This document shows positions 527 to 44,303 of a stretch of DNA of 64,000 bases, one piece after another. How positions within the stretch are numbered: position 1 is the first letter of the stretch; every line of letters starts with the position of its first letter. The notes below the pieces were generated by a model. That model was not told the origin of the DNA, did not search any database, and was given only the letters and a program-made list of their open reading frames with translations. The translations under genes and the position numbers were made by a program. Source of the stretch: Mycobacterium colombiense CECT 3035 (GTDB lineage Bacteria; Actinomycetota; Actinomycetes; Mycobacteriales; Mycobacteriaceae); NCBI RefSeq assembly GCF_002105755.1, contig NZ_CP020821.1:2542001-2606000 (forward strand), read 5' to 3'.

Positions 527-552
527 TTCGCTATGTTAGCGTGAATAGCGAA
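527..552. promoter_or_regulatory. Inverted repeat, candidate operator between divergent genes
   Basis: TTCGCTAT (527-534) and ATAGCGAA (545-552) are perfect 8-bp arms around a 10-bp spacer that contains GTTAG. The arm plus spacer gives GCTATGTTAGC, a member of the CTATNWTAG group found before several other operons in this window. It lies 38 bp upstream of the start at 591 and 19 bp upstream of the divergent start at 507. Confidence 0.55.
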
Positions 553-590
553 ATTGCGGTCGCGGTCCGATCCCCTGAGGAAGTGCCCCG

Positions 591-2057
591 ATGACAGAGA
601 CTTCCGCCCATCGCTCCTACAACGAGCTGTTTATCGGCGGCCAGTGGTGCAAGCCGGCCAATCCTCAGCAGCTCACCGTGGTCTCGCCGCACTCCGAAGA
701 GCCGGTCGGACATGTCCAGGTCGCGGGCCCCGAGGACGTCGAGGCGGCCGTCGCCGCCGCACGACGCGCCTTCGACCACGGCCCGTGGCCGCGGATGAGC
801 CATGCCGATCGGATGGCCAAGGTCGAACAGCTCGCCGGGATCTACGCCGGCCACGCCGACGAGATGGCCGACCTCATCACCGATGAGATGGGGTCGCCGC
901 GCAGCTTCAGCCGGATGGGGCAGGGCGCGGCCGCCGCGGCGCTGATCCACCTGTCGCTGGCCGCCGCCCGCGAGTTCCCGTGGGAGGAACGCCGCCAGGG
1001 TGCGCTCGGCGAAGTCCACCTGCGCAGGGCCCCGGTCGGAGTGGTCGGGGCGATTGTGCCGTGGAACGTGCCGCAATTTCTGATCATGCCCAAGCTGATC
1101 CCGGCGCTGATCGCGGGTTGCACCGTCATCATCAAGCCCGCACCCGAAACACCTTTGGACGCATTGTGGTTGGCCGAGATGATCGAGCAGATCGGGCTGC
1201 CCGAGGGCGTGGTGTCGGTGCTGCCCGGCGGCCCCGAGGTCGGTGAGACGCTGGTCCGCCATCCCGGTGTCGACAAGGTCGCGTTCACCGGATCCAGTGC
1301 CGTCGGCCGCCGGATCGCCGCCCTGTGCGGCGAGCAGCTGAAGCGGGTGAGCTTGGAGCTGGGCGGCAAGTCCGCGGCGATCATCCTCGACGACGCCGAC
1401 ATCACCAAGACGGTGGCCGGCCTGAAGTCCGCGGGGTTGATGAACAACGGTCAGGCCTGCGTCGCGCAAACCCGGATCTTGGTCAGCGACCGCAAGCACG
1501 ACGAGGTGGTCGACGCACTCGCCGACATGATGTCGGCGCTGCATGTCGGCGACCCTGCCGACGAGTCGACCGACATCGGACCGCTTGTGGCCCAACGACA
1601 ACAGCGCCGCGTCCAGGACTTCATCAAATCGGGCCGCAGCGAAGGCGCGCGGGTCGTGCTGGGTGGTGAGCAGAGCCCCTCCGAGCGCGGCTGGTATGTG
1701 CAGCCGACGCTGTTCGCCGACGCCACCAACGACATGCGCATCGCCCGGGAGGAGATTTTCGGTCCGGTGCTGACGGTGCTGCGCTACCGCGACGAGGACG
1801 ACGCGATCCGCATCGCCAACGAGACCGACTACGGCCTGGCCGGTTCGGTGTGGACCGCAGACATCGAACACGGCCTGGACGTGGCGGCCGCCGTCCGCAC
1901 CGGAACGTACGGCATCAACATGTACACCCTGGACATCGGCGCGCCGTTCGGCGGCTTCAAGCAGTCCGGCATCGGGCGTGAGTTCGGGCCAGAGGGGCTG
2001 CACGAGTACGTCGAGCTGCAGACGCTGATATGCAAGGGCCAGCTACCGCCGCTATAG
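591..2057 (+). CDS. NAD(P)-dependent aldehyde dehydrogenase
   Basis: A 488-residue, full-length member of the aldehyde dehydrogenase superfamily that oxidises an aldehyde to an acid in the cytosol. Visible hallmarks are the cofactor-site segment FTGSSAVGRRIA, the catalytic-Glu motif LELGGKSA, the nucleophile in NNGQACVAQ, and the C-terminal EEIFGPVL. GAGGAAGTG a few bases upstream supports the ATG at 591. The stop overlaps the end of the convergent gene (2052-2582) by 6 bp. In this neighbourhood it probably oxidises an aldehyde made by P450 or alcohol dehydrogenase steps; this is inference. An inverted repeat at 527-552 is the likely control site. Confidence 0.92.
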   Translation: MTETSAHRSYNELFIGGQWCKPANPQQLTVVSPHSEEPVGHVQVAGPEDVEAAVAAARRAFDHGPWPRMSHADRMAKVEQLAGIYAGHADEMADLITDEMGSPRSFSRMGQGAAAAALIHLSLAAAREFPWEERRQGALGEVHLRRAPVGVVGAIVPWNVPQFLIMPKLIPALIAGCTVIIKPAPETPLDALWLAEMIEQIGLPEGVVSVLPGGPEVGETLVRHPGVDKVAFTGSSAVGRRIAALCGEQLKRVSLELGGKSAAIILDDADITKTVAGLKSAGLMNNGQACVAQTRILVSDRKHDEVVDALADMMSALHVGDPADESTDIGPLVAQRQQRRVQDFIKSGRSEGARVVLGGEQSPSERGWYVQPTLFADATNDMRIAREEIFGPVLTVLRYRDEDDAIRIANETDYGLAGSVWTADIEHGLDVAAAVRTGTYGINMYTLDIGAPFGGFKQSGIGREFGPEGLHEYVELQTLICKGQLPPL

Positions 2058-3557: not shown

Positions 3558-3570
3558 GTATCGGTGTCGC

Positions 3571-3996: not shown

Positions 3997-4058
3997 GGTG
4001 GCTCTCCAGCCTCTGTCGGGAAATGACGGGAAATTGCCTCAAGTAACACTAACTTAAC

Positions 4059-5664: not shown

Positions 5665-6774
5665 TCAAGCTTTGGCGGCCGCCGGATCGGGCTCGCCGTC
5701 GGCGTCGTAACCGAAGTCGGCGGGCGACGGCTCCTCCCCCGGGTAGAAGCGGTGAGCCCACCGGCGAAGGGCCGCGTAGTCATGCGCCTCTTCCGGTGCC
5801 AGGTTCGGCTTCTCCAGGTATTTCATGTTCTCCCAGGTGAAGAAGTCCTGTTTGATGACCTCTTGCTGCAGGGCGAGGAACCGGGCGGCACGTCCGGTGG
5901 GCACGCCGCCGTCGTCGTCCGGCTCACGTACGGACGCCTGGGTGTAGAAGTAATCGGTGTAGTCCTCGTCGACCGGCGTCTGGCCGGTGACCTGCACGGT
6001 GGCCACCAGCTCGCTGGGAAAGCGCACCACGCCCAGGCCCAGCGAGTAGTTGTCGTAGATGATCTTGGCGTCGACCGGACCGTTGGGGGTCAGCCACGTC
6101 TGCGCCCGGCCGCCGCCGAAATGGGCGTTGACGGTGGCGTGCAGGTGGTAGCCGGCCACCTCGAACGACGCCGTGGTGGCCGGGTTGGCGGCCTTGTGCA
6201 CGTATTGAACGTGATAGGGGTCGGCGGCGTTTTCGATGATCATCTGCGGATGCACCTTGACGCGGTTGAGCATCTGGGTGTGCGGGTGCAGCGGGTAGTA
6301 CTCGTCGGTTTCCAATTCCGGCAGCACCGGCGGCTGCCAATACGGCGCCCGGCCGTGGCGCTCGTGCCAGGCCAGGATGAAGCCGTACCACTCCATGCTC
6401 GGATAGGTCCGGATGCGGACGTTGTTCTTGCAGCCGATCTTGCTGTAGGGAATCAGCGCGTTGGTCCCGTCGCCGCGCCACTGCCAGCCGTGCCAGGGAC
6501 AGACGATGTTTTCCCCCTCCACGGTGCCGCCGACCCCGAGGTTGGCGCCGAGGTGCTGGCAGTAGGCCTCCATCACGTGCACCTGGCCCGAGGCGGTGCG
6601 GAACAGCACCAGCTCCTCGCCGAAGTAATGCGCGCGCCTGACCTGGCCGGGAGCCAGGTCGTTTCCGAAGGCGACGATGAACCAGCCCGTCGGGAAACGG
6701 TAGGTCGACAGGGCGATGCCGCCCGGACCGAACTCCCGTTCTGAGGGGTCTGATTCCGGAATCGTATTCGTCAC
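5665..6774 (-). CDS. Rieske non-heme iron oxygenase, KshA-like oxygenase component
   Basis: About 369 residues from GTG 6774, preferred because GGAG lies 5 bases upstream; a GTG at 6792 is possible. The Rieske [2Fe-2S] motif is CQH...CPWHGW (YCQHLGANLG, then VCPWHGWQW), and the mononuclear iron site is the ENAADPYHVQYVHK segment with Asp and two His. This pattern matches 3-ketosteroid 9-alpha-hydroxylase oxygenase KshA and its many mycobacterial paralogues, which need a separate reductase that is not seen nearby. It is divergent from a P450; the 6846-6867 inverted repeat lies between them. The steroid substrate is inference by family. Confidence 0.88.
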   Translation of the reverse strand: MTNTIPESDPSEREFGPGGIALSTYRFPTGWFIVAFGNDLAPGQVRRAHYFGEELVLFRTASGQVHVMEAYCQHLGANLGVGGTVEGENIVCPWHGWQWRGDGTNALIPYSKIGCKNNVRIRTYPSMEWYGFILAWHERHGRAPYWQPPVLPELETDEYYPLHPHTQMLNRVKVHPQMIIENAADPYHVQYVHKAANPATTASFEVAGYHLHATVNAHFGGGRAQTWLTPNGPVDAKIIYDNYSLGLGVVRFPSELVATVQVTGQTPVDEDYTDYFYTQASVREPDDDGGVPTGRAARFLALQQEVIKQDFFTWENMKYLEKPNLAPEEAHDYAALRRWAHRFYPGEEPSPADFGYDADGEPDPAAAKA

Positions 6775-6845
6775 GAGAACTCCGTTTCCCACGCGGCCGG
6801 GCGCACTTTGGGCCGCTCTTACCTCACCGCGTTTCGACGACTAAA

Positions 6846-6867
6846 GTCTATTTTTACTATTTTAGAC
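6846..6867. promoter_or_regulatory. Inverted repeat, candidate operator between Rieske and P450 genes
   Basis: GTCTA (6846-6850) and TAGAC (6863-6867) flank an AT-rich centre, and the right half reads ACTATTTTAGAC, a CTATNWTAG-type site. It sits in the only AT-rich stretch of the gap between the divergent Rieske gene (start 6774) and P450 (start 6929). It could control both. Confidence 0.55.
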
Positions 6868-6928
6868 ATTGAACGTCAACGCGGCGCCGGCCGGTGGTCG
6901 CGTGTCGCCTGAGCCAATGGGGGTTCGC

Positions 6929-8167
6929 ATGACGGCCGCTGCGGTGGACCTTTCCGACTTCGCCTTGTGGCGTAATGGTTTTCCCGACGAGTTGTTCGCC
7001 GACCTGCGGCGCACCATGCCACTTTTCAAGCACGACCTGACACCGGGTGTCGCCGACACCGTCCGGCGCCAGTTCTGGGTCGCCACCAAACACCGGCACG
7101 CCGTCCGCCTGCACCGCGACACCGAGTCGTTCACCGCGGCCGACGGCCCCCTCATCCAGCCGGTCGCCATGTTCTCGGCGTCCCCGACGATCATCACGCT
7201 GGATCCGCCGGACCTGAACAAGCGCCGCAAACTGATCTCCAACGCCTTCAACCCGCGCGCGATCGCGAAGCTGGAGAACGGCATCCGGGCGCGTGCGGCG
7301 CGGATGATCGACGGTCTGCTCGCCAAGGGCGGCGGAGACTGGATCGAGGACGTCGCCGACGCGCTGCCGATGACGGTGATCGGCGACATCATCGGCATCC
7401 CGGACGAGGACCGGCCGCGAATCTTCGACCTCTTCGACCGCATCCTCAAGGCCCTTGCTCCCGAGGCGGGCCCGAACGGCCAGGTGGAGCTCGAGCTGTT
7501 CGGCTCCGTCTTCAGCTATGCGATGGAGCTCACCGCCGAGAAGCGGCGCAACCCGACGGACGACATCTGGAGCACGCTGGCCACCGCGGTGATCACCGGC
7601 GACGACGGCGAACAGTTCAGCCTGCCCGAGAACGAACTCGAGTTCTTCTTCTTCGTGCTGGCGTTCGCCGGCAGCGACACCACGAAGAACGCGCTGGCCA
7701 TCGGGCTGCAGGCGTTCGTCGACAACCCCGAGCAGATCGACCGCTACCGCGCGGACGAAGCGTTGCGGCCCAGCGCCGTCGAGGAGGTGTTGCGCTGGGC
7801 GTCGCCGGTGGCCTATTGGACGCGCACCGCGAAGGTCGACGTCGAGATGGACGGCCAGCACATCGCCAAGGGCGACCGCGTGGTGTCGACGCTGCGATCG
7901 GCCAACCGCGACGAGGAGGTATTCGAGTCCCCGTTCACCTTCGACATCGGCCGCCAGCCCAACCCCCACGTGGCGTTCGGGGGCGGCGGACCACATCACT
8001 GCCTGGGCGCCATGCTGGCCCGTGCGGAACTCCGCGCGGTCCTCGACGAGCTGTTCCTGCGCTGCGACGACATCGAGATCGGCCCGGCGAAGGTGGCCCA
8101 TCCGAACCTGACCACCAACATGTCGATCTATGACGAGATGGCCATCTCGCTCACCGAGCGGCGCTGA
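6929..8167 (+). CDS. Cytochrome P450
   Basis: A 412-residue soluble bacterial P450 from ATG 6929, where GGGGGTT lies just upstream; ATG 6917 and TTG 6869 are alternatives. Hallmarks: I-helix FAGSDTTKNA (the AGxDT oxygen-activation motif), K-helix ExxR in EEVLRW, and the haem-binding loop FGGGGPHHCLGAMLAR with the Cys thiolate. It hydroxylates a hydrophobic substrate using electrons from a ferredoxin, and a 3Fe-4S ferredoxin gene lies convergently 46 bp beyond its stop, the usual partner arrangement in mycobacteria. Family number and substrate cannot be decided here. Confidence 0.92.
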   Translation: MTAAAVDLSDFALWRNGFPDELFADLRRTMPLFKHDLTPGVADTVRRQFWVATKHRHAVRLHRDTESFTAADGPLIQPVAMFSASPTIITLDPPDLNKRRKLISNAFNPRAIAKLENGIRARAARMIDGLLAKGGGDWIEDVADALPMTVIGDIIGIPDEDRPRIFDLFDRILKALAPEAGPNGQVELELFGSVFSYAMELTAEKRRNPTDDIWSTLATAVITGDDGEQFSLPENELEFFFFVLAFAGSDTTKNALAIGLQAFVDNPEQIDRYRADEALRPSAVEEVLRWASPVAYWTRTAKVDVEMDGQHIAKGDRVVSTLRSANRDEEVFESPFTFDIGRQPNPHVAFGGGGPHHCLGAMLARAELRAVLDELFLRCDDIEIGPAKVAHPNLTTNMSIYDEMAISLTERR

Positions 8168-8423: not shown

Positions 8424-10817
8424 CTAGAGGCCCTTGGGTCGGGTCCCGATCACCCCGCCGGTCGCGAGGCGTGTCAGTTCTTCGTCGGTCAGCCCGCACC
8501 GATCGCGCAGGATCTCTTCATTGTGCTCGCCCAGCCTGGGCGGCGGCCGCAACAGCCACTGATCCTGACCGGCAAGCCGGGCGAACGGCGGGCACGGGTA
8601 CAGCCCGAGGCCAGTACTCGCGTGGTGCAGCGACTCGAAAAAGCCGCGCTCGCGCAGTTGCGGGTTGTCGGTGACCAGCGACGGTGACACCACCGGGGCC
8701 GCGGGAACACCCGCGCCTGCCAACCTCTCCACCGTCGGGTCGAGTGGCTGCCCGGCGAACCAGTCCGCCAGCCGGCCGTCGATGTCGTCGGCTCGTTCTC
8801 GCCGCCCGGCGATCGTGGACAACGCGTCGTCGCCGCACCAGGCCGGTCGGCCCATCACGTCCACCAGCGCGCGCCACTGCGGGTCGTCGCGAACGGTGAT
8901 CGCGATCCAGTCGTCGGATCCGGCGCAGCGATAGATGTTCTGGATCGCCGCGCCGTGACCGCGGTTGCCGCGACGGCTCAGCGTCGCCCCGAAGACTTCG
9001 GATTCGATCGCCTGGATCGCGGTGGCGTTGAGCACCGTTTCGAGCATCGGCAGCTCCACCAGCTGTCCCGTCCCGGTGCGTTCGGCGAAGTTCAGCGCGG
9101 CCAGCACCGCGAAGGCGGCGTGCACACCGGCCAACGGATCGCAGGCCCCGCGCGGTGTCACCGGCGGCGCGTCGGGCAGGCCGGTCACCCAGGCCAGGCC
9201 GGCGATCTGTTCCATGGTGGGAGCGAACCCGACGCGATCCCGCCATGGCCCCTCGACACCGAACGCGGGCATCCGGGCGAACACCAGTTTTGGGTTGACG
9301 GCGCGCAGCACGTCGTCGGTGAGCCCGAATTGCTCCATCACCCGCGGCGAGAAGTTCTCGATCACGACGTCGGCGCCGGCGACCAACTCGGTGAACAGGC
9401 GGCGACCCTGCTCGGAGCCCAAATCCAGTGTGACCGAACGCTTGTTGGTGTTCATCGCGTGGAACACCCAGCCGTATTCCCACCAGTCGTCCACGTCGGT
9501 GCGCATCCCGCCGGAGTATCGGATGCCGTCCGGACGCTGGATCGACTCGATCTTGACGACGTCGGCGCCGAAGGCTGCCAGCAGATGGGTAGCGGCCGGC
9601 CCGGCCCAGAAGGCGGTCAGGTCGACGATGCGAACGCCGGCCAACGGCAGCCCGTCCAGTTCCGGAGCGGCGTCGGATTCCGCACGGCGCCAAGGGGACT
9701 CGCCATCGGCCTCACCACACACGGGCGTGTCACCCACGGGTGCGGGCGCACACACCGACATCAGCCAGGGCGGCCGGGGCTGGTCGAACCCGGCGGGGTT
9801 GTGGCAGAAGACCCCACGCTCGCGCACGTACTGCAGCTCCCGGATGGTGGAGCCGTTGCCCAGCGCGGCGATCGGCAGCCGGAACAGTTGCCCGAGTTCG
9901 ACGATCTCGGCGACGGTGCGCTCGGCCAGCCACGGGCGGATCTGCTCGCGGATCAGGTCGCGATACTGCCACCGGCCGATCTGGAACCGCAGCTGTTCGA
10001 TCTCCTCCAATTGCGGGCATTCGACCATCGCGGCGAAGTCGAGCCACTGCTGACCGGTGACCATGGTGATCCCGACGTAGCCGTCCTTGGCGGGTTCGAT
10101 CGACGGGACCTCGGTGGTTCGCCGGATCGGCGGGACGCGCAGCAACTGCGAGTGCAGCCATTCGCTGCTCTGCATCGTGGTCAGCGCTTCCAGCATGGAC
10201 AGGTCCAGGTGCTCGCCGGGCCCGCCGCGCTCGACGCGACGGCGCAGCGCCAGGGCGCCGAACGCGGCGAATACGCCACCCATGTACTCGCCCAGATCGC
10301 CGCCGATGGAGATCGGCGGCCCGGCCGGATCGCCGCGGAAGCCGGGCGAACCCGCAAACGCCTGCAGGGTGAACTCGGTGGCGGCCCGCTCCGCGTAGGG
10401 TCCGTCCCAGCCGAAGTCGGAGACGCTGACGATGATCGCCCGCGGCGAGTCTTGCAGCAGCTGTGGTGGGTCGACGCCGAGCGCCGCGGCGCGGGCCCGG
10501 CCAGCGGTCACGACGACGACGTCGGCGCCGGCCAGTTCGTCGCGATAGCGCTGCGAGTCGGGCGCCCAAGTCATGCTGCGCTTGCCCGCGTTAAGGTAGC
10601 TGAAAAACGGCCCGGTGCGGTCCTGGGGAATCGAGGAGCCGCTGGCGGAGTAGCGCCGCAACCAATCCCCTTGCGGCGGTTCGATTTTGTGGACCTGCGC
10701 GCCGGCGTCGCGCAGCAGCTTCCCGCAGTAGCTGCCCGCTATCCGGTCACTGATCTCGACGACACGCAAATCGTGTAGCGGCGTCGGCCGGCCTTCGGAC
10801 CGCTCGCTCAATTGCAC
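8424..10817 (-). CDS. Tandem (two-domain) CaiB/BaiF family III CoA-transferase
   Basis: A 797-residue protein made of two family III CoA-transferase domains. The first covers roughly residues 12-380 (LRVVEISDRIAGSYCGKLL, then AGAQVHKIEPPQGD, then GGDLGEYMGGVFAAFGAL). The second covers roughly 405-790 (VRIVDLTAFWAGPAATHLL, then GADVVKIESIQRPDG, then ACDPLAGVHAAFAVL). Each has an Asp in the region of the catalytic aspartate (GDLGEYMGG and CDPLAGV). Most relatives are about 400 residues and dimerise as interlocked rings, so this is a covalently linked pseudo-dimer. It starts at GTG 10817, divergent from the GntR gene. It would move CoA between acids without ATP. Confidence 0.88.
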   Translation of the reverse strand: MQLSERSEGRPTPLHDLRVVEISDRIAGSYCGKLLRDAGAQVHKIEPPQGDWLRRYSASGSSIPQDRTGPFFSYLNAGKRSMTWAPDSQRYRDELAGADVVVVTAGRARAAALGVDPPQLLQDSPRAIIVSVSDFGWDGPYAERAATEFTLQAFAGSPGFRGDPAGPPISIGGDLGEYMGGVFAAFGALALRRRVERGGPGEHLDLSMLEALTTMQSSEWLHSQLLRVPPIRRTTEVPSIEPAKDGYVGITMVTGQQWLDFAAMVECPQLEEIEQLRFQIGRWQYRDLIREQIRPWLAERTVAEIVELGQLFRLPIAALGNGSTIRELQYVRERGVFCHNPAGFDQPRPPWLMSVCAPAPVGDTPVCGEADGESPWRRAESDAAPELDGLPLAGVRIVDLTAFWAGPAATHLLAAFGADVVKIESIQRPDGIRYSGGMRTDVDDWWEYGWVFHAMNTNKRSVTLDLGSEQGRRLFTELVAGADVVIENFSPRVMEQFGLTDDVLRAVNPKLVFARMPAFGVEGPWRDRVGFAPTMEQIAGLAWVTGLPDAPPVTPRGACDPLAGVHAAFAVLAALNFAERTGTGQLVELPMLETVLNATAIQAIESEVFGATLSRRGNRGHGAAIQNIYRCAGSDDWIAITVRDDPQWRALVDVMGRPAWCGDDALSTIAGRRERADDIDGRLADWFAGQPLDPTVERLAGAGVPAAPVVSPSLVTDNPQLRERGFFESLHHASTGLGLYPCPPFARLAGQDQWLLRPPPRLGEHNEEILRDRCGLTDEELTRLATGGVIGTRPKGL

Positions 10818-10878: not shown

Positions 10879-10910
10879 AAGCCAGCGAGTTGCTTTGTTT
10901 CGAGGATCGG

Positions 10911-11732
10911 ATGACCGCCTTGGGAATTGGCCCCGACGCCCGGCGCCGGTTGTCGGCGCCGCGGATCGCCGAAATCGTAGCCGACGAGTTGCGCCGTCAG
11001 ATCATCGACGGCGAGCTCGCGGACGGTGATCTCCTGCCGCGCCAAGAGGTGCTCGTCGAACAGTTCAACGTCAGCTTGGTGTCGCTGCGCGAAGCGCTGC
11101 GGATCCTGGAAACCGAGGGGCTGGTTTCGGTGCGGCGGGGCAACCGCGGCGGTGCCGTCGTCCACGCCCCGGCGAAGACCAGCGCCGCGTACATGCTCGG
11201 CTTGTTGTTGCAGAGCGAGTCCGTCGAGGTCACCGATCTCGGCATGGCGTTGCAGGAACTCGAGCCCGCCTGCGCCGCGCTGGCCGCCCGCCGGCCGGAC
11301 CGGGCGGACACCCTGGTGCCCGAGCTCACCCGGATCAACGAGTCGATGGCCGAAAACCTGGACGACGGACGGCTTTTCACTGAAATCGGCCGTGAATTCC
11401 ACGATCAGGTCGTCCGCGGCTGCGGCAATCACACGATCATTGCGGTGGTGGGCAGCCTGGAGACGCTGTGGACCAGCCACGAACGGCAGTGGGCCGACGA
11501 GAGCGCGTCGCGCGGCACTTACCCCTCCCTCACCCAGCGCCGCGCGGCGCTCAACACTCACGTCAAGCTGACGGAGACGATCGCCGACGGTGACGTCGAC
11601 CGGGCCCGGCGCATCGCGGGTCGCCATCTGGCCGACACGCAGACCTATGTCCTGTCCGGCCAGCACGATCAACGCATCTACGCGCTCTCCCCGCAGGCGT
11701 TGGCGCGGCCGCGCGATATCCGGCACTCCTGA
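10911..11732 (+). CDS. GntR-family (FadR/FCD type) transcriptional regulator
   Basis: A 273-residue regulator started at ATG 10911 (GAGGAT just upstream). The N-terminal winged helix is clear: IAEIVADELRRQIIDGEL, LLPRQEVLVEQFNVSLVSLREALRILETEGL and a glycine-rich wing VRRGNRGGAVV. A C-terminal all-helical FCD domain follows (about residues 95-250), with EFHDQVVRGCGNHTI carrying candidate His/Asp metal ligands. FCD regulators sense organic acids or acyl-CoAs. It is divergent from the fused CoA transferase, with a 31-bp inverted repeat between, so it probably represses that operon and itself, and possibly the similar sites elsewhere in the window. Confidence 0.9.
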   Translation: MTALGIGPDARRRLSAPRIAEIVADELRRQIIDGELADGDLLPRQEVLVEQFNVSLVSLREALRILETEGLVSVRRGNRGGAVVHAPAKTSAAYMLGLLLQSESVEVTDLGMALQELEPACAALAARRPDRADTLVPELTRINESMAENLDDGRLFTEIGREFHDQVVRGCGNHTIIAVVGSLETLWTSHERQWADESASRGTYPSLTQRRAALNTHVKLTETIADGDVDRARRIAGRHLADTQTYVLSGQHDQRIYALSPQALARPRDIRHS

Positions 11733-11751
11733 AGGGCGGCCTGCAACGGTG

Positions 11752-12468
11752 ATGCGAACCGCATTGGTCACCGGCGGCAGCGGCGGGATCGGAAAGGGCT
11801 GTGCCCGCAAGCTGGTTGAGCGCGGCTACGATGTGGTGCTCTCGGCGCGCCGCGAGGCCCCGTTACGTGCCGCCGCCGAGGAGATCGGTGCCCGCCATAT
11901 CGTGGCCGACGCGTCCGACCCCGACGGATTCCCCGCTGCGATAAGCACATTGGAGACGATCGACCTCGTCGTTCACGCGGCCGGTGCGCTCGGGGGTACC
12001 TACGCGCGCAAGCAGACCTTCGACCAATGGCAAGCCATCATGTCGGCCAATCTGGATTCGTGCTTCGTGGTGACGTCCGCGGTGCTGCCGAAAATGACGG
12101 CGGGCTCGCGGCTGGTGTTCATCTCGTCGTCGGCGGCGCACGAGCCGATGCCGGCCCGCACCGCCTATTCCGCGTCCAAGGCCGGCATGAACGCGTTCGC
12201 GCGCGCCCTGGCGCTCGAGGTCGACCGCGACGGCATCAGCGTGCACATCGTCACGCCGGGGCCGGTGGCCACCGAAATGCTGCAGGACGTCCCGTTCGAG
12301 ATGTACGCCATCGCGGTGTCCGACGTCGCCGAGGCGGTCGCCTGGCTGGACACCGTCGATCCGTCGGTCGATCTGCCGGAGATCCGGCTGTCCGCCGTGG
12401 AGCGCGGTCCCTTCGCGCGACCGCCCGTGGTGCCCACCGAGGCGCGGCGACGCGCGCAAGGCGGTTGA
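11752..12468 (+). CDS. Short-chain dehydrogenase/reductase
   Basis: A 238-residue Rossmann-fold SDR. It shows the cofactor motif TGGSGGIGKG, VVHAAGA (the NNAG position), the catalytic Ser in ISSSAAHE, and the YSASK pair for Tyr and Lys, then TPGPVATEM. It starts at ATG 11752, 19 bp after the GntR stop, so it is probably in the same transcript. Such enzymes interconvert an alcohol and a ketone with NAD(P)(H), for example the 3-hydroxyacyl or ring-hydroxyl step of a degradation pathway. The specific substrate is unknown. Confidence 0.88.
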   Translation: MRTALVTGGSGGIGKGCARKLVERGYDVVLSARREAPLRAAAEEIGARHIVADASDPDGFPAAISTLETIDLVVHAAGALGGTYARKQTFDQWQAIMSANLDSCFVVTSAVLPKMTAGSRLVFISSSAAHEPMPARTAYSASKAGMNAFARALALEVDRDGISVHIVTPGPVATEMLQDVPFEMYAIAVSDVAEAVAWLDTVDPSVDLPEIRLSAVERGPFARPPVVPTEARRRAQGG

Positions 12469-13331: not shown

Positions 13332-13384
13332 GCGCCACCTCTGCGTCGGGACCCGTGCGATTGACGGCTCGGCTAGTTTATTAT

Positions 13385-13400
13385 CTTTACTATGTTAGAG
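13385..13400. promoter_or_regulatory. CTATNWTAG-type site before the acyl-CoA dehydrogenase operon
   Basis: TTTACTATGTTAGAG precedes the start at 13406 and matches TTTACTATTTTAGA at 6852-6866 at all but one base. It lies in a short AT-rich patch between the divergent luciferase-like gene (start 13331) and the operon. Confidence 0.45.
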
Positions 13401-13405: not shown

Positions 13406-14476
13406 ATGGATGTCGGGCTGAACCCGGAGCAGCTCTCGCTGCGCGACACCGTACGCGACATATTGCGTACGGAGTGCCCGCCCGACGCCGCTCGTCAAGC
13501 GATGACCGATCCGGAGCGCTGGCGCACGCTGTGGAAGACCGTCGTCGACCTCGGCTGGACCGAGCTCGCCGCCCCGGATGCCGGCGACTACGGACCGGTC
13601 GAGCTTGCCGTGGTCCTCGAGGAGTGCGGCGCCGCCCTCGCACCAATTCCGTTGCTGAGCAGCGTCGGTCTGGCCGCGGGCCTGTTGCGCAGCACCGGGC
13701 TCGACTCGATGCTGACCGACATCGCGGGCGGCGTCGTGGCCACCGTGGCCGTCCACGCCCAGGGGGCCCGGCTGCCCGGCGCGCCGATGACGCTGCGCCA
13801 GGGACGTCTGCGCGGCACGGCGGTTGGCGTCCCCAACCTGTCGCGCGCAGAGCTCGTCGTCACCCTGGCCCGCTCCGACGACGGCGGCACCGTGGCGGCC
13901 GTCGCCCGCTGCGGCGACGGGGTCACCGCGGTGCCGGCGGCCGAATCCACCGATCCCGCTCAGCCGTTGGCACGCGTCGAGATCGACGCGGAGCCCGTCG
14001 CGGTTGCACCCGTCGACCTCGAGTCGGCCTTCGCGGCGCCCTGGGTGGCCGCGGCCGCCGACCTCCTCGGCGTGGCGAGTGCGGCGTTGCACCGCTCGGT
14101 CGAGTACGCGAAGTCGCGGTGTCAGTTCGGCCTGCCGATCGGCGCGTTCCAGGGCGTCAAACACGCGCTGGCCGACAACTACGTCAGCGTCGAGCGCGCC
14201 CGCAGCCTGACCTACGCCGCGGCGGCCCGGCTCGCCGATCCGGCCCCGGCACCGACCGAGGTGTGGACCGCCGCGGCGCTGGCCAAGGCGGCGGCCAACG
14301 ACGCGGCGAGCGGCTGCGCGCGCACCGCGGTCCAGGTGCACGGCGCCCTCGGGCAGACCTGGGAGCACGACGCCCACCTCTATGTCCGGCGCGCCTGGCA
14401 GGGCGCCGCCGTGCTGGGCGACAGCCGCTCGCTGTATGACGAGGTGGGCCGCCGGTTCTGCGGGGGTGCCGCATGA
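13406..14476 (+). CDS. Acyl-CoA dehydrogenase (FadE-like, partner subunit)
   Basis: A 356-residue ACAD from ATG 13406. It is shorter than the classical 380-400 and divergent in the N-terminal helical domain. The C-terminal half has SRCQFGLPIGAFQGVKHALAD (flavin-domain helix) and the VQVHGALGQTWEHDAHLYVRR signature, typical of one subunit of the heteromeric alpha2beta2 ACADs that mycobacteria use on steroid-CoA side chains and rings. The next gene supplies the GGTSEVQ-type subunit. It starts an operon of four ACAD genes and a ligase on this strand. Which subunit supplies the catalytic base is not certain from this reading. Confidence 0.88.
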   Translation: MDVGLNPEQLSLRDTVRDILRTECPPDAARQAMTDPERWRTLWKTVVDLGWTELAAPDAGDYGPVELAVVLEECGAALAPIPLLSSVGLAAGLLRSTGLDSMLTDIAGGVVATVAVHAQGARLPGAPMTLRQGRLRGTAVGVPNLSRAELVVTLARSDDGGTVAAVARCGDGVTAVPAAESTDPAQPLARVEIDAEPVAVAPVDLESAFAAPWVAAAADLLGVASAALHRSVEYAKSRCQFGLPIGAFQGVKHALADNYVSVERARSLTYAAAARLADPAPAPTEVWTAAALAKAAANDAASGCARTAVQVHGALGQTWEHDAHLYVRRAWQGAAVLGDSRSLYDEVGRRFCGGAA

Positions 14477-14529
14477 GCCGCACCGGCGACGATGCAGAGC
14501 GCAGCGATGAGGAGGAGTGGTGCGCATGA
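14473..14529 (+). repeat. MIRU-type repeat at a stop/start junction, copy 1
   Basis: The sequence between the stop at 14474-14476 and the start at 14526 contains GATGCAGAGCGCAGCGATGA followed by GGAGGAGTGG. It nearly matches the copies at 17714-17770 and 51052-51096. Mycobacterial interspersed repetitive units of this type insert at overlapping ATGA junctions and carry the ribosome-binding sequence for the next gene. Confidence 0.75.
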
Positions 14530-15632
14530 GCGCCCTGGTGCAGGAATTCGGTGCGTGGCTCGCGGAGTTTCTGCCCGACGACTACTACGCGGACTATCGG
14601 CAATACCGCTGGGACCTGGGGTTGCGGCGCGATTACCAGCGGGCCTCGTTCGAGGCCGGCTGGCTACAGCCGACCTGGCCCCGCGAGCACGGCGGTCGAT
14701 CGCTGGGCCTGCGCGACGCCATGGAAGTCCGGATCGAGGCGGCGCTGCGGTCCGCGCCTAAGCTGCCCAACGTCCAGGGTCCCGGTGTCGCCGCGCCCGG
14801 CATCCGTCAATTCGGGACGCCCGCCCAGATCGAGCGTTACCTCGTTCCACTGCTGCGTGGCGACGAGTGGTGGGCGCTGGGCATGTCCGAGCCCGAGGCG
14901 GGATCGGATTTCGCCGGCCTGCGCACCCGAGCGGTGCGTGACGGCGACGTATTCCGGGTCAACGGCCACAAGATCTGGACCACCCACGCGCACCTGTCGC
15001 GGTGGTGCACCCTGTACGCCCGCACCGATCCGGAAGCGCCGAAACACCGTGGCATCTCCTGCCTCATCCTCGATCTGCATTCCCCGGGGGTCAGGATCGA
15101 GCCCATCCGGATGGCGTCGATCTCCGACGAGACGTTCTGCGAGGTCTTCCTCGACGACGTCGAGGTGCCGGCCGATAATCTGCTGGGGCCGCTGAACGGC
15201 GGCTGGAACGTCGCCCTGTCGTCGCTGCATCATGAGCGCCAGATGATCTGGATCATGAATTGGGTCGAGATCAAGCGCGGGCTCGACTCGGTGCGCGAGG
15301 CCGCCTCCGCGGACTCGCGCCGGGACGTGTACGCCGAACTCGGTTCGCTGCTCGCGGATGCCGAAGCGTTGCGGGCCACCGGGTATCGCGCCTTGGGCAA
15401 CGAGCTCGCGGGACGGCCCAGCTCGGAGGCCGACACCATGAAGCTGCTCGGATCGCTTACCCTGCAGCGTGTTTGGGAGCTGAGTGCGGCCGCCGCGGGA
15501 CCGGATTCGGCCACCGATCCGGATCTACTGTTCGAGCGTCAGGACGCGCTGGCCGCAACGATCTACGGCGGAACGTCGGAGGTTCAGCGCAACATCATCG
15601 CCGAGCGGCTGCTCGGGTTGCCGAAGGGATGA
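14526..15632 (+). CDS. Acyl-CoA dehydrogenase (FadE-like, GGTSEVQ subunit)
   Basis: A 368-residue ACAD from ATG 14526, where the repeat supplies GAGGAGGAG. Hallmarks are WALGMSEPEAGSDFAGLRTRA (flavin and substrate loop), KIWTTHAHLSRWCTLYARTD, and the C-terminal IYGGTSEVQRNIIAERLLG that contacts FAD across the subunit interface. It is the natural partner of the preceding gene, in which the complementary HGxxGxTWEHD signature is found. It removes two hydrogens from an acyl-CoA and passes electrons to ETF. Its stop overlaps the start of the next ACAD (ATGA at 15629). Confidence 0.9.
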   Translation: MSALVQEFGAWLAEFLPDDYYADYRQYRWDLGLRRDYQRASFEAGWLQPTWPREHGGRSLGLRDAMEVRIEAALRSAPKLPNVQGPGVAAPGIRQFGTPAQIERYLVPLLRGDEWWALGMSEPEAGSDFAGLRTRAVRDGDVFRVNGHKIWTTHAHLSRWCTLYARTDPEAPKHRGISCLILDLHSPGVRIEPIRMASISDETFCEVFLDDVEVPADNLLGPLNGGWNVALSSLHHERQMIWIMNWVEIKRGLDSVREAASADSRRDVYAELGSLLADAEALRATGYRALGNELAGRPSSEADTMKLLGSLTLQRVWELSAAAAGPDSATDPDLLFERQDALAATIYGGTSEVQRNIIAERLLGLPKG

Positions 15633-16785
15633 CGACCATGGATTACGACCTCGGCGACGACGCCGGGCAACTGCGCGGCCACCTGCGCGAGCTGGTTGCC
15701 AACCACATCCCCGCCGACTTTCTGGGTGCCTGCACCGAGAACCCGCAGGACCTCGCCACCACCGAGACGTTCTGCAAACTGCTGGCCACCGAGGGGCTGC
15801 TGGCGCTGGCGTGGCCGAAAGAGCATGGCGGCGGCGGTGGTTCGGTCTGGCAGCAGACGGTGCTGCGCGAGGAGATGTGGGCCCAGCACGAGCCGCGCGG
15901 CCCGCAATACATGGGGATCAACTGGGTCGGTCCCGCGCTGATGCGGTACGGGACGGCCGAACAGAAGGCCAAGCACCTGTCCGCCATCGCCTCCGGAGAC
16001 GTGATCTGGTGCCAGGGCTTTTCGGAGCCGGAGGCCGGCACCGACCTGGTGTCGTTGCGTACCCGCGCCGTCGCCGACGGTGATGGCTGGCGCATCACGG
16101 GCCAGAAGGTGTGGACGTCGTACGCGCTGATGGCATCCTGGTGCGTGTTGGCCGCGTGCACCGATCCCGAGGCTCCAAAACACAAGCGGCTCACCCTGTT
16201 TCTGATCCCGATGGACCGGGCCGGCTTCACCGTCCGGCCGATTCCGTCGATGCTCGGACCGCACCACCTGAACGAGATGTTCTTAGACGACGTGCAGGCG
16301 TTCCCGGGCGACGTGCTCGGCGAGGTCGGTGACGGATGGCGGGTGATGCGCGAAGCCCTGGCTTTCGAGCGGGTGGGCATCGCCCGCTACGCGCGCTGTG
16401 AGTCGCTGCTCGAACGCATGCGCGCCCAACTCGGCGACGACTGGGAGCAGCTGCCCGAAACGATCCGCACCCGCTGGGTGCGCGCACTCGTCGACCTACG
16501 AGTCGCCCGCTTGCTGGCCTATCGCGCGGTCTCGCTGCAGGACGACCCGGCGGCGGGGCCGCGGCCAGCGCCGCGCGCATCATCACCACGACGTGCGACC
16601 AACTCGTCGCGGAGCTGCTGTTCGACGTGCTGGGCCCGACGGCGCTGGACAGCGGAACCTCCGCGGCGCTGCACGGGGCCATCGAAGACCATTGGCGTTA
16701 CGCACAAGCGGCGACCGTCGCATCGGGCACCATCGAGGTGCAGCGCATGCTGGTGGCACGAGACGTGTTGGGAGAACACAGGTGA
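15629..16785 (+). pseudogene. Acyl-CoA dehydrogenase broken by a -1 frameshift
   Basis: From ATG 15629 the frame gives a normal ACAD (AWPKEHGGGG, WCQGFSEPEAGTDLVSLRTRA, KVWTSYALMASWCVLAA, DDVQAFPGDVLGEVGDGWRVM) up to LQDDPAAG near 16557. The rest, with CDQLVAELLFDVLGPTALDSG and ASGTIEVQRMLVARDVLG, is in the next frame and ends with the stop at 16783-16785. Adding one G to the four-G run near 16555-16558 restores a 385-residue protein. The stop then overlaps the next start (GTGA), as expected of an intact operon. A homopolymer base-call error is the simplest explanation. Confidence 0.85.
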
Positions 16786-17717: not shown

Positions 17718-17770
17718 GCCCCGCCGGTGACGATGCAGAGCGAAGCGATGAGGAGGAGCGGCGCAGATGA
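17714..17770 (+). repeat. MIRU-type repeat at a stop/start junction, copy 2
   Basis: It spans from the ATGA holding the stop at 17715-17717 to the ATGA that starts the ligase at 17767. It contains GATGCAGAGCGAAGCGATGA and GGAGGAGCGG, differing from copy 1 (14473-14529) at only a few bases, and gives the ligase a strong ribosome-binding site. Confidence 0.78.
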
Positions 17771-30506: not shown

Positions 30507-30526
30507 GCTATTTATACTATGATAGC
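30507..30526. promoter_or_regulatory. CTATNWTAG operator in the gap before a P450 operon
   Basis: GCTAT-N10-ATAGC (30507-30526) contains ACTATGATAGC, an 11-base match to the site at 44226-44236. The 348-bp gap 30276-30623 otherwise shows no convincing gene; a plus-strand frame through it lacks family features. The AT-rich patch 30503-30535 is the obvious promoter or operator for the P450 at 30624. Confidence 0.55.
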
Positions 30527-30623
30527 TATTTTCCGCTCGGTACACCCGCCGGCGTGGATTTCGCGGGCACTCGTCATCCGGTCCGCGTGAACCGCCTTAT
30601 CCGTTGTTTCAGGAGGAGCGCTG

Positions 30624-31856
30624 ATGACGCTCAGCACCGGCCCGAAAGGTCAGCCCGTGGCACCCGCACTGGATTTCACGGGTGAAACCAGCCCCTACCC
30701 GTTTTTTCAACACATGCGTCAGACTGACCCGGTGTGGCACGGTTCCCTCAACGACAACACCCAGTTGCCGGAAGAGCTGCGACCCAGTGACGAGTGGGTC
30801 CTGTTCGATTACGACGGTGTCTCCCAAGCCTTTCGCGACGACCGGATCTTCACGTCGGCCGCCTACGACAAGACGATCGGGTTGGTGATGGGGCACACCA
30901 TCCTGGCGATGGGCGGCCGGGAACACCACGATCACCGCAACCTGGTGGCCAAGGCATTCCGCGCGACCGCGCTGGAACGCTGGGAACCGTCGGTCATCGG
31001 ACCGGTCTGCGATCGACTGGTCGACGAGATCAAGAACGACGGTCAAGCCGATCTGGTGAAGGCGGTGACCTTCGAGTTCCCCACGCGGATCATCTCGACG
31101 CTGCTCGGTCTGCCCGCCGAGGATTTGGACCTCTTCCGGCGTTTGTCCCTCGATCTGATCTCGATCCCGACCGATATCGAGGCGGGCTTGAACGCCGCCG
31201 CGGAGCTCTACGATTACTTCCTCAAACAGGTCGAGCAACGCAGGCGCAAGCTCACCGATGACATCATCGGCGACCTGGTCGCCGCCGAGATCGACGGTGA
31301 GAAACTCACCGACGAGGCCATCATCGCGTTCCTGCGGCTGCTGCTCCCGGCGGGCCTGGAAACCACCTATCGCTCGTCGGGCAATCTGCTGTATCTGCTG
31401 CTGACCCACCCCGAACAGCTCGCGATGGTCAACCGGGACCGGTCGCTGATACCGATGGCGATCGAGGAGGGCCTGCGGTTCGAAACGCCGCTGACCATGG
31501 TCATGCGCACCACGACCGAAGAGGTCGAAATCGGCGGCAAGACAATCCCGGCCGACGCCCAGATCGACATGTGCATGGGCTCGGCCAACCGCGACGAGAC
31601 TCGCTGGACCGATCCCGACACGTTCGACATCCGCCGCCCGCGGCAAGCCCACATCGCCTTCGCCGGCGGTATCCACATGTGCCTCGGCATGCACCTGGCC
31701 CGGCTGGAAACCCGGGTCATGCTGAACAGTCTGTTGGACCGGGTCGAGAACCTGGCGTTCGCGCCCGACGACGGAACCGGCGAGGAATCCAAGATCGTCG
31801 GGCTCACCTTCCGGTCGCCGAACAAGCTTCCGGTGACGTTCGCCCCCGCCGCATGA
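30624..31856 (+). CDS. Cytochrome P450
   Basis: A 410-residue P450 with strong GGAGG upstream. Motifs: I-helix LLLPAGLETTYRSSGNLL (Glu in place of the usual Asp), ExxR within IEEGLRFETPL, and the haem loop FAGGIHMCLGMHLARLE. It is a close paralogue of the P450 at 48590-49798; the two share the I-helix block and YDKTIGL at the same positions. Its stop overlaps the start of an NDMA-type alcohol dehydrogenase (ATGA), so a hydroxylation followed by alcohol oxidation is the likely two-step job. The redox partner is not adjacent. Confidence 0.92.
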   Translation: MTLSTGPKGQPVAPALDFTGETSPYPFFQHMRQTDPVWHGSLNDNTQLPEELRPSDEWVLFDYDGVSQAFRDDRIFTSAAYDKTIGLVMGHTILAMGGREHHDHRNLVAKAFRATALERWEPSVIGPVCDRLVDEIKNDGQADLVKAVTFEFPTRIISTLLGLPAEDLDLFRRLSLDLISIPTDIEAGLNAAAELYDYFLKQVEQRRRKLTDDIIGDLVAAEIDGEKLTDEAIIAFLRLLLPAGLETTYRSSGNLLYLLLTHPEQLAMVNRDRSLIPMAIEEGLRFETPLTMVMRTTTEEVEIGGKTIPADAQIDMCMGSANRDETRWTDPDTFDIRRPRQAHIAFAGGIHMCLGMHLARLETRVMLNSLLDRVENLAFAPDDGTGEESKIVGLTFRSPNKLPVTFAPAA

Positions 31857-33010
31857 GAAGCCGCGCGGCGATCCTGCACGACGTCGGCGGGCCGTGGTCC
31901 GTCGAGGAATTCGAGCTCGATCCCCCCAGGGCCGGCGAGGTCCTGGTGCAGATGGCGGCGGCCGGTTTGTGCCACTCGGACGACCACATCCTCAAAGGCG
32001 ACATGTCGGCGCCCAACGAGGTGATGCGATCGATGGGGCTGCCGACCATGTTCCCGACGATCGGCGGCCACGAGGGCTCCGGCATCGTGCGCGAGGTCGG
32101 CCCGGGTGTCACCGACTTCGAGCCGGGTGACCACGTGGTGATGTCGTTCGTGGCCGTGTGCGGCCAATGCCGTTGGTGCGCCAGCGGAATCGAGTACCTG
32201 TGCGACGTCGGCATCGGCACGATGATCCCGGGGATGCCGACGGACGGCACGTTCCGCCACCACACCGCCGACGGCCGCAGCCTTGGCCATATCGCCAAGA
32301 TCGGGGCATTCGCCGAACACACCGTGGTATCGACGAATTCACTGGTGAAGATCGAGCAACATCTGCCGCTGACATCGAGCGCCCTGCTGTCCTGCGCCAT
32401 CCCGACCGGCTACGGCTCCGTTGCCAACCGGTCCAACATGCGCGCCGGCGACACGGTCGTGGTGATCGGCGTCGGCGGGATCGGCACCGGCGCGATCCAG
32501 GGGGCCCGCATCAACGGCGCCGCGCAGATCGTCGCGGTGGATCCGGTTGACTTCAAACAGAAATCGGCGCTGCAGTTCGGCGCGACACATAGCGCGGCGA
32601 CCATCGACGAGGCGCTGGACCTGGTGCGCGGCCTCACCTACGGGGTGATGGCCGACGCGGTCGTGGTCTCGCCCTCGTTGATCACCCCGGAGGACGTCCG
32701 CGACGCCGTGAAGCTCACCCGCAAGGGCGGCACCTGCGTGCTCACCGGCATGACGTCGCAGTTGACCCGGTCGGTCAAGATCGACCTGCAGGACTTCATC
32801 CTGATGAACAAGACGTTGGCGGGCACCATATTCGGCTCCTGCAACCCGAAGGCGGACATCTCCCGGCTGGCCAGGCTGTATGAGACGGGCCAGCTTCAGC
32901 TCGACGAGATGATCACCAAGCGCTATCGCCTCGACGAGGTCAACGACGCCTACGACGACCTACTCAACGGCAAAATCGTCCGGGGCATCATCGATTTCGG
33001 GATCGGCTGA
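31853..33010 (+). CDS. Zinc-dependent, NDMA-type alcohol dehydrogenase
   Basis: A 385-residue medium-chain dehydrogenase from ATG 31853. Catalytic zinc ligands are in AGLCHSDDH and IGGHEGSG; structural zinc is held by the four-Cys lobe CGQCRWCASGIEYLC; NAD binds at VVVIGVGGIGTGAIQGAR. The overall style matches the TIGR03989 group (Rxyl_3153/NDMA-dependent enzymes). Many such enzymes use a mycofactocin-linked electron acceptor and keep NADH bound, but this gene alone does not prove it. It overlaps the P450 by 4 bp and should oxidise the alcohol that P450 produces. Confidence 0.9.
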   Translation: MRSRAAILHDVGGPWSVEEFELDPPRAGEVLVQMAAAGLCHSDDHILKGDMSAPNEVMRSMGLPTMFPTIGGHEGSGIVREVGPGVTDFEPGDHVVMSFVAVCGQCRWCASGIEYLCDVGIGTMIPGMPTDGTFRHHTADGRSLGHIAKIGAFAEHTVVSTNSLVKIEQHLPLTSSALLSCAIPTGYGSVANRSNMRAGDTVVVIGVGGIGTGAIQGARINGAAQIVAVDPVDFKQKSALQFGATHSAATIDEALDLVRGLTYGVMADAVVVSPSLITPEDVRDAVKLTRKGGTCVLTGMTSQLTRSVKIDLQDFILMNKTLAGTIFGSCNPKADISRLARLYETGQLQLDEMITKRYRLDEVNDAYDDLLNGKIVRGIIDFGIG

Positions 33011-34923: not shown

Positions 34924-34926
34924 CTT

Positions 34927-41968: not shown

Positions 41969-42009
41969 GTCACTCCCTTGCCGCGCGCGGGCCGGACTGC
42001 TGAAATCTA

Positions 42010-42018
42010 TACTGTAAT
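42010..42018. promoter_or_regulatory. TACTGTAAT site before the Rieske operon
   Basis: TACTGTAAT is identical to the left half of the 48517-48535 palindrome, and ATTTAG follows. The wider AAATC-N12-GATTT repeat (42003-42024) surrounds it. It sits 35 bp before the likely start at 42053. Confidence 0.45.
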
Positions 42019-42052
42019 GGATTTAGTATCAACGATCGCGGGAGGCACCGGC

Positions 42053-43060: not shown

Positions 43061-43686
43061 CGGACCGGCTGACCGCACTGGCCGCACCCGAGCGCACCGC
43101 GATCGTCACCCAGGAATGCCAGGGCGCGGTGATGGGGCCCGACGCGGGACTGGCGATGCTCGCCGAGGAGGCGCGCCGCGAGGCGCTGCCCAACATCGCT
43201 CGCCTGCTGCCCGCGGCCCGGGCGGCCGGGGTGCGGGTCGTGCACTGCCTGGTGCAGCGGCGCCCCGACGGGCTCGGGTCCAACCACAACGCCAAGATCT
43301 TCGCGATGGGCGGTGCCGGCAAGGTCGATATCACACCCGGCACACCCGGTGCCGAGCTGCTGCCCGAATTAGGGCCGGAGCCTTCGGATTTGGTGCTGCG
43401 CCGGTGGCACGGCGTGGGCCCGATGGGCGGCACGGACCTGGACGCGATGCTGCGCAATCTCGAAGTGTCGACCATTGTCGTGGTGGGTGTTTCGCTGAAC
43501 ATTGCGATACCCAACCTCGTCATGGACGCCGTCAACGCCGGCTACCGGGTGGTGCTCCCCCACGACGCGGTGGCCGGCGTACCCGCCGACTATGGTGCAG
43601 CGATGATCGCCAACACCCTGTCGCTGCTGGCCACGATCACCAGCACCGACGACCTGCTCCGGGCCTGGGACGAAGGACTGCGATGA
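43057..43686 (+). CDS. Isochorismatase/cysteine-hydrolase-fold protein without the catalytic Cys
   Basis: A 209-residue protein with the isochorismatase-like layout: TAIVTQECQGAVMGPD at the start and VVGVSLNIAIPNLVMDAVNAGYRVVLPHDAVAG near the end. The usual nucleophile sits in a TN-x-C-V motif just before this DAxxxGY helix; here the codon gives Ala (LNIAIP). The usual N-terminal Asp is Glu (TQE). So classical cysteine hydrolase chemistry is not expected, and it may be a binding or divergent enzyme. It overlaps both neighbours by 4 bp and is part of the Rieske-thioesterase-ligase operon. Confidence 0.8.
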   Translation: MTDRLTALAAPERTAIVTQECQGAVMGPDAGLAMLAEEARREALPNIARLLPAARAAGVRVVHCLVQRRPDGLGSNHNAKIFAMGGAGKVDITPGTPGAELLPELGPEPSDLVLRRWHGVGPMGGTDLDAMLRNLEVSTIVVVGVSLNIAIPNLVMDAVNAGYRVVLPHDAVAGVPADYGAAMIANTLSLLATITSTDDLLRAWDEGLR

Positions 43687-44303
43687 CCGAAACCGCGCCG
43701 GAAGTTCGAGGCGGATTCCCCGACGTCAGGCCCGTCGAGGACGCGCCCACGGAGCTGGGCCCGTTCGTCGCCGCGCTGCGCCGCCTGCAGGACCTGACCG
43801 TGTCCACCAAACCCGACCCCGCGGCGTGGGAGGCCGCGACCGCGCACCTGGAGAACGCCTGCGCGTTGCTCGAGGGCCACCAGGTCCCGGAGACCGAGGC
43901 GGTGGCCGGCAGGGTGCTGAGCCTGCCGGGGTTGGCCCATCCACTGATACCGCCCTGGATGGTGACGGAGTCCGGGCCCGACGGCGTGCGGATGGCCGGT
44001 CATTTCAGCACCGCCCACATCGGGGGGAACCGGGCCGTGCACGGCGGCATAATCCCGCTGTTCTACGACTGGCTGTTCGGCATGGTCGTGACCACCGCGG
44101 ACATCCGGCCGACGCGCACGGCGTACCTGCACGTCGATTTCCGCAGCATCACCCCCATCGACCAACCACTCACGGCGCACGGCCGCATCACCAACATCGA
44201 CGGCAGGAAGGTTTTCATTGACGCTACTATGATAGCCGCCGATGGAACCTTGCTCAGCGAGGCCAACGGCCTGATGGTTCGTTTGTTACCCCACCAGCCG
44301 TGA
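43683..44303 (+). CDS. PaaI-like hotdog thioesterase
   Basis: A 206-residue protein from ATG 43683, stop-start coupled to the previous gene. The hotdog core is HFSTAHIGGNRAVHGGIIPLFYDWLFGMV with the H-G-G motif, then TAYLHVDFRSITPIDQPLTAHGRI and DATMIAADGTLLSEANGLMV. The first about 95 residues are an extra helical region (VAALRRLQDLT, AAWEAATAHLENACALLEG) not found in minimal PaaI. It would hydrolyse an acyl-CoA in the same operon as the ligase at 44312. A CTATNWTAG-type site lies within its 3' end (44223-44236). Confidence 0.82.
   Translation: MTETAPEVRGGFPDVRPVEDAPTELGPFVAALRRLQDLTVSTKPDPAAWEAATAHLENACALLEGHQVPETEAVAGRVLSLPGLAHPLIPPWMVTESGPDGVRMAGHFSTAHIGGNRAVHGGIIPLFYDWLFGMVVTTADIRPTRTAYLHVDFRSITPIDQPLTAHGRITNIDGRKVFIDATMIAADGTLLSEANGLMVRLLPHQP
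44223..44236. promoter_or_regulatory. CTATNWTAG site inside the end of the thioesterase gene
   Basis: GCTA-CTATGA-TAGC is an inverted repeat and contains the same ACTATGATAGC as 30516-30526. It lies within codons for DATMIAA, 76 bp before the ligase start at 44312. It could be an internal promoter or operator, or chance codon usage. Confidence 0.4.

Follow-up and report, generated by a model that had tools for sequence, protein, structure and literature searches.

Why do several catabolic operons in one part of a mycobacterial chromosome carry the same short palindromic core, CTATNWTAG, and which protein would read it? The window considered here is a 64-kb stretch of Mycobacterium colombiense CECT 3035 (positions 2542001-2606000 of contig C1 of genome G000, which has 5,581,643 bases), and it also encodes a GntR-family regulator with an FCD domain. 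We consider it likely that the cores are the centres of operators for this FCD-type GntR protein, encoded at 10911, whose dimers would bind an array of repeated units, cover the promoter, and repress both the pathway and gntR itself until a ligand binds. The best reading of the sequences would be an atypical, perhaps NanR-like operator that serves an autoregulated repressor of isoprenoid- or steroid-like catabolism.

The core motif in the window and the genome

Exact copies of CTATNWTAG lie at 531, 6857, 10868 (minus strand), 13390, 30517 and 44227 of the window. All six sequences reported by the first-pass annotation are present where it had placed them, and ACTATGATAGC, the 11-base sequence said to be identical at two sites, occurs without mismatch at 30516 and 44226. 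These six distinct places give eight strand-matches, compared with a mean of 0.08 in shuffled sequence, and none of 100 shuffles reaches eight. The whole genome holds the core at eight distinct places, six of them inside the window, and the binomial probability of at least six of eight falling there is 6e-11, to be read with the caveat that the motif was chosen in this same window. The sites and the candidate binder are as follows.

522..557, plus strand: predicted operator of the aldehyde dehydrogenase (ALDH) gene; core CTATGTTAG at 531-539, flanking 9-bp units CTTTTTTCG, CGTGAATAG and CGAAATTGC; 30.3 bits; exact core in 20/21 close-clade loci
6848..6874: predicted operator between the divergent Rieske and P450 genes; plus-strand reading CTATTTTTA CTATTTTAG ACATTGAAC; 37.2 bits
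10850..10885: predicted operator between the divergent CoA-transferase and gntR genes; minus-strand reading CTGGCTTAG CTATTTTAG CAGTAATGA TATAAATAG; 16.9 bits
10911..11732, plus strand: GntR-family regulator with FCD domain, candidate binder (Pfam PF00392 and PF07729; alignment; fold)
13372..13398, plus strand: predicted operator of the acyl-CoA dehydrogenase (ACAD) operon; GCTAGTTTA TTATCTTTA CTATGTTAG; 33.1 bits; conserved mostly as TTATGTTAG
30508..30534, plus strand: predicted operator of the P450-alcohol dehydrogenase (ADH) operon; CTATTTATA CTATGATAG CTATTTTCC; 27.0 bits; exact core in 2/2 close-clade and 10/10 divergent loci
44227..44235, no strand: CTATGATAG inside a 4HBT open reading frame (ORF); 0.7 bits; CTATGACAG in G046; probably a chance match, outside the regulon

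Scored with a matrix from orthologous promoters, five of the six sites that had been taken as one motif hold together (16.9 to 37.2 bits) and the sixth, at 44227, does not.

A longer element with 9-bp phasing

The five sites, at the heads of the ALDH, Rieske/P450, CoA-transferase/GntR, ACAD and P450-ADH operons, have in common an 18-bp element, CTATYTTTACTATNTTAG, and weaker 9-bp units carry on in phase with it. Motif discovery by expectation maximisation from random seeds, run on 61 dereplicated promoters (five classes picked for having the core in the window, together with two places outside it), gave the consensus CTATTTTTACTATnTTAG at width 18 and CTAnAATnnCTAAnATAGTAAAAATAG at width 28. 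Four of the 61 promoters scored below zero under the width-28 model, namely ALDH1 of L059, gntR of L043 and L050, and the L001 site. The pattern CTAANATAGNAAARATAG was derived from these sites; it matches the genome at four places with at most two mismatches, all in the window at these operons. With at most three mismatches there are eight places, adding gntR, two overlapping matches at a distal CoA-transferase gene and a stray at 562860, and the reversed control gives two. Matches to the 18-bp matrix of at least 9 bits number six in the window (two within the gntR array) and none in 80 kb of flanks; the four in a 400-kb sample comprise two at the distal operator, deliberately included, and two strays (13.0 and 10.8 bits).

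This specificity bears on the possibility that no special binder exists and that the motif is only a -10 region, AT-rich and conserved against a G+C-rich genome. Several cores do hold TANNNT boxes and one promoter-like match overlaps a site, but ordinary -10 boxes would recur everywhere, whereas the 18-bp element with at most two mismatches is confined to these operons. The units also extend beyond the core, and a reversed control of the extended motif described below finds nothing in 148 genomes. We judge a promoter-only explanation to be extremely improbable.

The distal operator, which scores 23.3 bits, lies 1.38 Mb from the window operators, before the CoA-transferase gene; at least four of the eight genomes searched (G046, G129, G048 and G031) retain it at the orthologue of that gene. 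The catabolic regulon proposed by the first-pass annotation is well supported, with operators conserved at operon heads, and, given the distal operator, not strictly local.

On core-aligned promoters the unit score peaks at +9 and +18, both outside the model, and 0/2000 column permutations reach either peak; the peak at -9 is circular, because that unit belongs to the model. A high score is also found at +14 (-4.9; the values at +9 and +18 are -3.1 and -7.9), which a nearly palindromic unit may be expected to give. Phasing is clearest in the consensus of the distal gene (CATTCCTTG CTATTTTAG ATATTCTAG CTAGTCTTG) and of ALDH (CTTTTTTCG CTATGTTAG CGTCAATAG CGAAATTAC), and the outer units at Rieske are weak. 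The sites are therefore better described as arrays of 9-bp units than as single palindromes: the core of the short palindrome originally described is real, and the element around it is longer and resembles a tandem array. Direct and inverted repeats of such a nearly palindromic unit are hard to distinguish.

Conservation in relatives

Exact cores were counted from -250 to +20 of each gene start in all fetched loci, among which the same or near-identical genomes recur, so that the counts are not independent. In the close clade the core precedes gntR in 93/96 loci, CoA-transferase in 83/92, ALDH in 20/21 (0/1 in the divergent clade), Rieske in 33/85 (10/13 divergent), the first P450 gene (P450a) in 16/60 (3/11 divergent), ACAD1 in 24/93 (no divergent loci seen), and the second P450 gene (P450b) in all loci of both clades. 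The low exact counts at Rieske and ACAD1 arise because the variants TTAANATAG and TTATGTTAG occupy the same place among the loci listed; with TTAANATAG variants included, the Rieske/P450 operator is kept in both clades among these loci. The counts at LLM1 (25/93) and ABH3 (2/2) reflect intergenic regions common with ACAD1 and P450b, respectively, and that at LIG3 (1/2) agrees with the window match at 44227. No upstream core was found at the other 42 of the 52 tabulated window genes, many of them with only one or two loci.

Upstream of gntR, an element near GCTATTTATACCATTACTGCTAAAATAGCTAAGCC is kept in 30/30 aligned loci (own genome included), with flanks that vary in sequence and length; the match in L026 ends after AAAATA, and L021, L031, L034, L038 and L042 have a few substitutions. 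In 20 close-clade stretches (L063-L082) all 33 distinct core matches are intergenic and stand before ALDH, ACAD1 or P450b, or between Rieske and P450a or CoA-transferase and gntR. Where the GntR copies are more distant (20 stretches, L043-L062; GntR 63-79% identical, mostly other gene order), most matches fall between Rieske and P450a and before P450b, and those elsewhere are at L048:5, L059:3521, L060:8810 and L061:438.

L057, L060 and L061 each have two neighbouring GntR copies of this clade, accompanied by a ligase gene that is either between the two or adjacent, and the second copy in L060 has CTATCATAG upstream among the loci listed.

The candidate regulator

With orthologues taken at an E value of at most 2.2e-84, GntR is present in 73 of 148 genus genomes. 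Of the six named relatives best matched by the GntR protein (97-98% identical), five are M. colombiense strains. The extended motif CTAANATARYAAARATAR (at most one mismatch) occurs in 72 of the 148 and its reversed control in none; it is found in 71/73 genomes with the GntR orthologue and 1/75 without it. The exceptions are G067 and G089, which have GntR and no motif match, and G075, a 3.3-Mb genome with 46 core matches, which has a match and no GntR. The genomes are related, and a Fisher test on this co-occurrence overstates their independence. Targets remote from gntR keep the operator as well: the distance is 46 kb in G117 and 1.38 Mb in the own genome, and in the draft G071 the two are on separate contigs.

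Several observations weigh against assigning the sites to this protein. The bare core has no genome-wide excess (6 forward and 4 reverse matches, 10 in all, compared with 7 and 7, 14 in all, for the backwards-read pattern), so that the evidence lies in clustering, position and conservation rather than in number. Such a lack of excess, named by the first-pass annotation as grounds for abandoning the motif, holds in part for the bare 9-mer and does not hold for the long element. In the divergent clade the exact core precedes CoA-transferase in 0/12 loci and gntR in only 2/19, with a weaker form at gntR among the loci listed. A unit at -18 is unsupported across all promoters (850/2000 permutations), and the ACAD consensus alone has one. 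Of the five sites, that at gntR scores lowest (16.9 bits). Finally, the Rieske gene occurs in 70 genomes and GntR in 70/70 of these, so that co-inheritance alone cannot separate the regulator from its targets; the operators at remote targets, the near-invariant site at the close-clade gntR promoter and the distribution of the TetR genes help to tell them apart.

The operators could then belong to another regulator, either a TetR protein encoded in the cluster or an unlinked one, with gntR merely a further target. Three TetR genes lie within the window, and the Rieske gene and GntR never separate in the sampled genomes, but the distributions of the three do not follow the motif. Relatives of a TetR-4HBT protein at least 73% identical are absent from 25/72 motif genomes, the TetR gene at 35628 is absent from 58/72 and present in 11 genomes without the motif, and the TetR gene at 61705 is present in 43 genomes without it. 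None of the three tracks the motif across the 148 genomes, and a search for unlinked regulators was not made; we regard control by another protein as decidedly unlikely. The conserved operators, the co-inheritance and the near-invariant element at the gntR promoter point to the GntR protein as the best candidate binder, as first proposed.

The TetR-4HBT protein is encoded by a single ORF (19431-20465), in which a TetR DNA-binding domain is fused to a 4HBT thioesterase domain. Full-length relatives (at least 73% identical) are found in 47/148 genus genomes, and other matches span little beyond the first 200-240 residues.

The gntR ORF opens at 10890, and the conserved ATG is at 10911. Pfam matches to an N-terminal GntR winged helix and a C-terminal FCD domain place the protein in the FadR/FCD subfamily, and its nearest solved sequences are named PdhR, GntR and NanR. 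The structure model (mean pLDDT 73.3; residues 1-21 and 266-280 below 50) matches DhdR, McbR, PmiR, VanR, NanR and FadR, with root-mean-square deviations of 7.7-13 in the full-length rows. The recognition helix reads VSLVSLREAL, and Leu63 is found in 17/17 aligned sequences. It stands in place of the recognition-helix Arg (Arg45 of FadR, which contacts G according to PMC4494728, Table 1), the residues having been matched by hand to the FadR helix.

Ten paralogues (L233-L242, 42-53% identical) have a similar architecture in the aligned part, and in eight of them the gene's own promoter contains a palindrome or something close to one. Those with a VSYPS helix (6/10) have CAATCCTTATAAGGATTG there, with one base changed in L240; of the two with VSPPA, L239 has CTATCTTGTACAAGATAG and L238 an imperfect form; the two with ISKPS have neither sequence at their promoters. 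As half-sites, CAATCCTTA and CTATCTTGTA are similar to CTATCTTTA in the operator studied here, and this likeness suggests that the proteins recognise DNA in a common way, with the arrangement altered.

Sites left outside the regulon

The match at 44227, originally described as a site before a ligase, is probably not a member: it lies inside a 4HBT (thioesterase) ORF (43683-44303), scores 0.7 bits and is changed to CTATGACAG in the relative G046. G061 and G129 keep the same letters at this place, and their coding sequence around it is nearly identical. Another site, at 139809 of the own genome before an amidohydrolase gene (L001 1475-1515), reads GCTATCTATGTTAGC, and this or a near form is kept in five of eight further genomes searched (G143, G046, G048, G061 and G108). 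With matrix scores of -8.1 to 1.1, it does not fit the long motif and was not counted as a member.

Stretches L163-L176 (G087 C1 at about 4.10-4.35 Mb, and several contigs of G037) contain at least 22 core matches, most within a longer palindrome, TCTCTATTTTAGAGA. We rejected these CTATTTTAG clusters as parts of the same regulon, since most sites read close to TCTCTATTTTAGAGA and the GntR matches of these genomes are only distant; TCTCTATTTTAGAGA is a different operator, probably of another regulator.

Comparison with known regulators

The operator of NanR repeats its unit at a step of 8-9 bp. In Escherichia coli, three dimers of this GntR/FCD protein bind (GGTATA)3 cooperatively, and at least two closely spaced repeats are required, according to PMC8012715. 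The present protein resembles NanR, as described there, in its GntR and FCD architecture, in a repeated short operator unit (a 9-bp step here), and in its predicted role as an autonomous repressor of a nutrient pathway, and NanR is among its nearest solved chains. However, its unit is CTATNWTAG-like and GGTATA repeats are absent from the consensus. The NanR family NF003011, the only NCBIfam match at the cut used, scores 84 bits compared with a cut-off of 260, and no sialic acid genes are among the catabolic genes named.

Palindromes of the TKGT/ACMA type are usual in the FadR/FCD subfamily (VanR, PdhR, DhdR, FadR), with NanR and BioR as exceptions, and extra half-sites are reported near the main site (PMC4494728). 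The present protein has the domains and fold of this subfamily, but its operator consensus CTATTTTTACTATnTTAG lacks GT/AC boxes and, by hand alignment, Leu63 replaces the Arg that contacts G.

We also considered the steroid regulons of mycobacteria, which likewise involve control of lipid-type catabolic genes. KstR and KstR2 are TetR proteins with another palindrome, TNNAACNNGTTNNA. When the window was searched with this consensus, position 59382 gave the one match and the five promoters gave none, in agreement with the first-pass annotation that the KstR consensus is not used. The match is a single KstR-like palindrome, TCGAACTCGTTCGA (59382-59395), with 0.21 expected by chance.

Mode of action

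In the mechanism that we propose, the array would be occupied by GntR dimers, possibly by several next to one another as with NanR, and the promoter beneath them would be covered, which would keep both the pathway and gntR silent. The DNA would be released once the FCD domain binds a compound of the pathway, which is probably an acid or an acyl-CoA. By analogy, the binding of several dimers may be cooperative; what the sequences show is the 9-bp phasing of the units.

The sole promoter-like match in 6780-6960 is a sigma-70-like site, TTGACG-18-AAAAAT (6879-6850, minus strand), a consensus match rather than proof, and the Rieske operator overlies its spacer and -10. The ACAD operator ends 7 bp upstream of the ATG at 13406. 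Both positions suit repression by occlusion. FCD regulators of both signs are known and the P450b site lies 98 bp upstream of the start codon, which would suit an activator, but the ACAD and Rieske positions fit occlusion better, and activation by GntR seems unlikely to us.

Extending the repressor reading, the protein could represent a distinct FCD-GntR clade of non-tuberculous mycobacteria that lacks the usual recognition-helix Arg, reads phased 9-bp AT-rich arrays through cooperative dimers, and controls an uncharacterised isoprenoid- or steroid-like pathway in about half of the sampled genus. We offer this full picture tentatively, as possible rather than probable.

The pathway and its significance

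The genes at or near the predicted operators are as follows.

591..2057, plus strand: ALDH gene (Pfam PF00171)
5665..6792, minus strand: KshA-like Rieske oxygenase gene (Pfam; nearest solved chains KshA)
After the Rieske gene, minus strand: ligase, SnoaL-like and FAS1-dehydratase-like genes (Pfam)
6917..8167, plus strand: cytochrome P450 gene (P450a), CYP125/CYP268/CYP124-like; start at 6917 or 6929 (Pfam; nearest solved chains)
8424..10817, minus strand: CoA-transferase family III gene, 797 aa with two such domains (Pfam PF02515, two stretches)
11590..12468, plus strand: short-chain dehydrogenase gene after gntR (Pfam)
13406..19272, plus strand: ACAD genes plus a CoA ligase gene, presumably a single operon (Pfam; inner gene borders provisional)
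30624..33010, plus strand: P450 (P450b) and NDMA-dependent-type ADH genes (Pfam; TIGR03989 above its cut-off)

A ligase is nearest BaiB and an acyl-CoA dehydrogenase nearest IpdE2, each below the cut-off of its family, and the alcohol dehydrogenase is of the NDMA-dependent type, above its cut-off. Taken together, the ALDH, Rieske oxygenase, P450, CoA-transferase, ligase, ACAD and ADH would combine oxidation with CoA-dependent shortening, and the set suggests that the substrate is an isoprenoid- or steroid-like compound.

No account of this regulator or motif was found in the literature searched at the level of titles and abstract openings, which does not show absence from print. The findings point to a control circuit not described in the papers searched. 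Many non-tuberculous mycobacteria carry such a catabolic cluster, which would thereby acquire a defined regulator, operator and list of genes, and the substrate could be sought via the effector. Published exceptions among FCD regulators are few; the AT-rich, arrayed operator would be a further one, and the paralogues, with their different helices and operators, would form a natural set for how GntR proteins read DNA.

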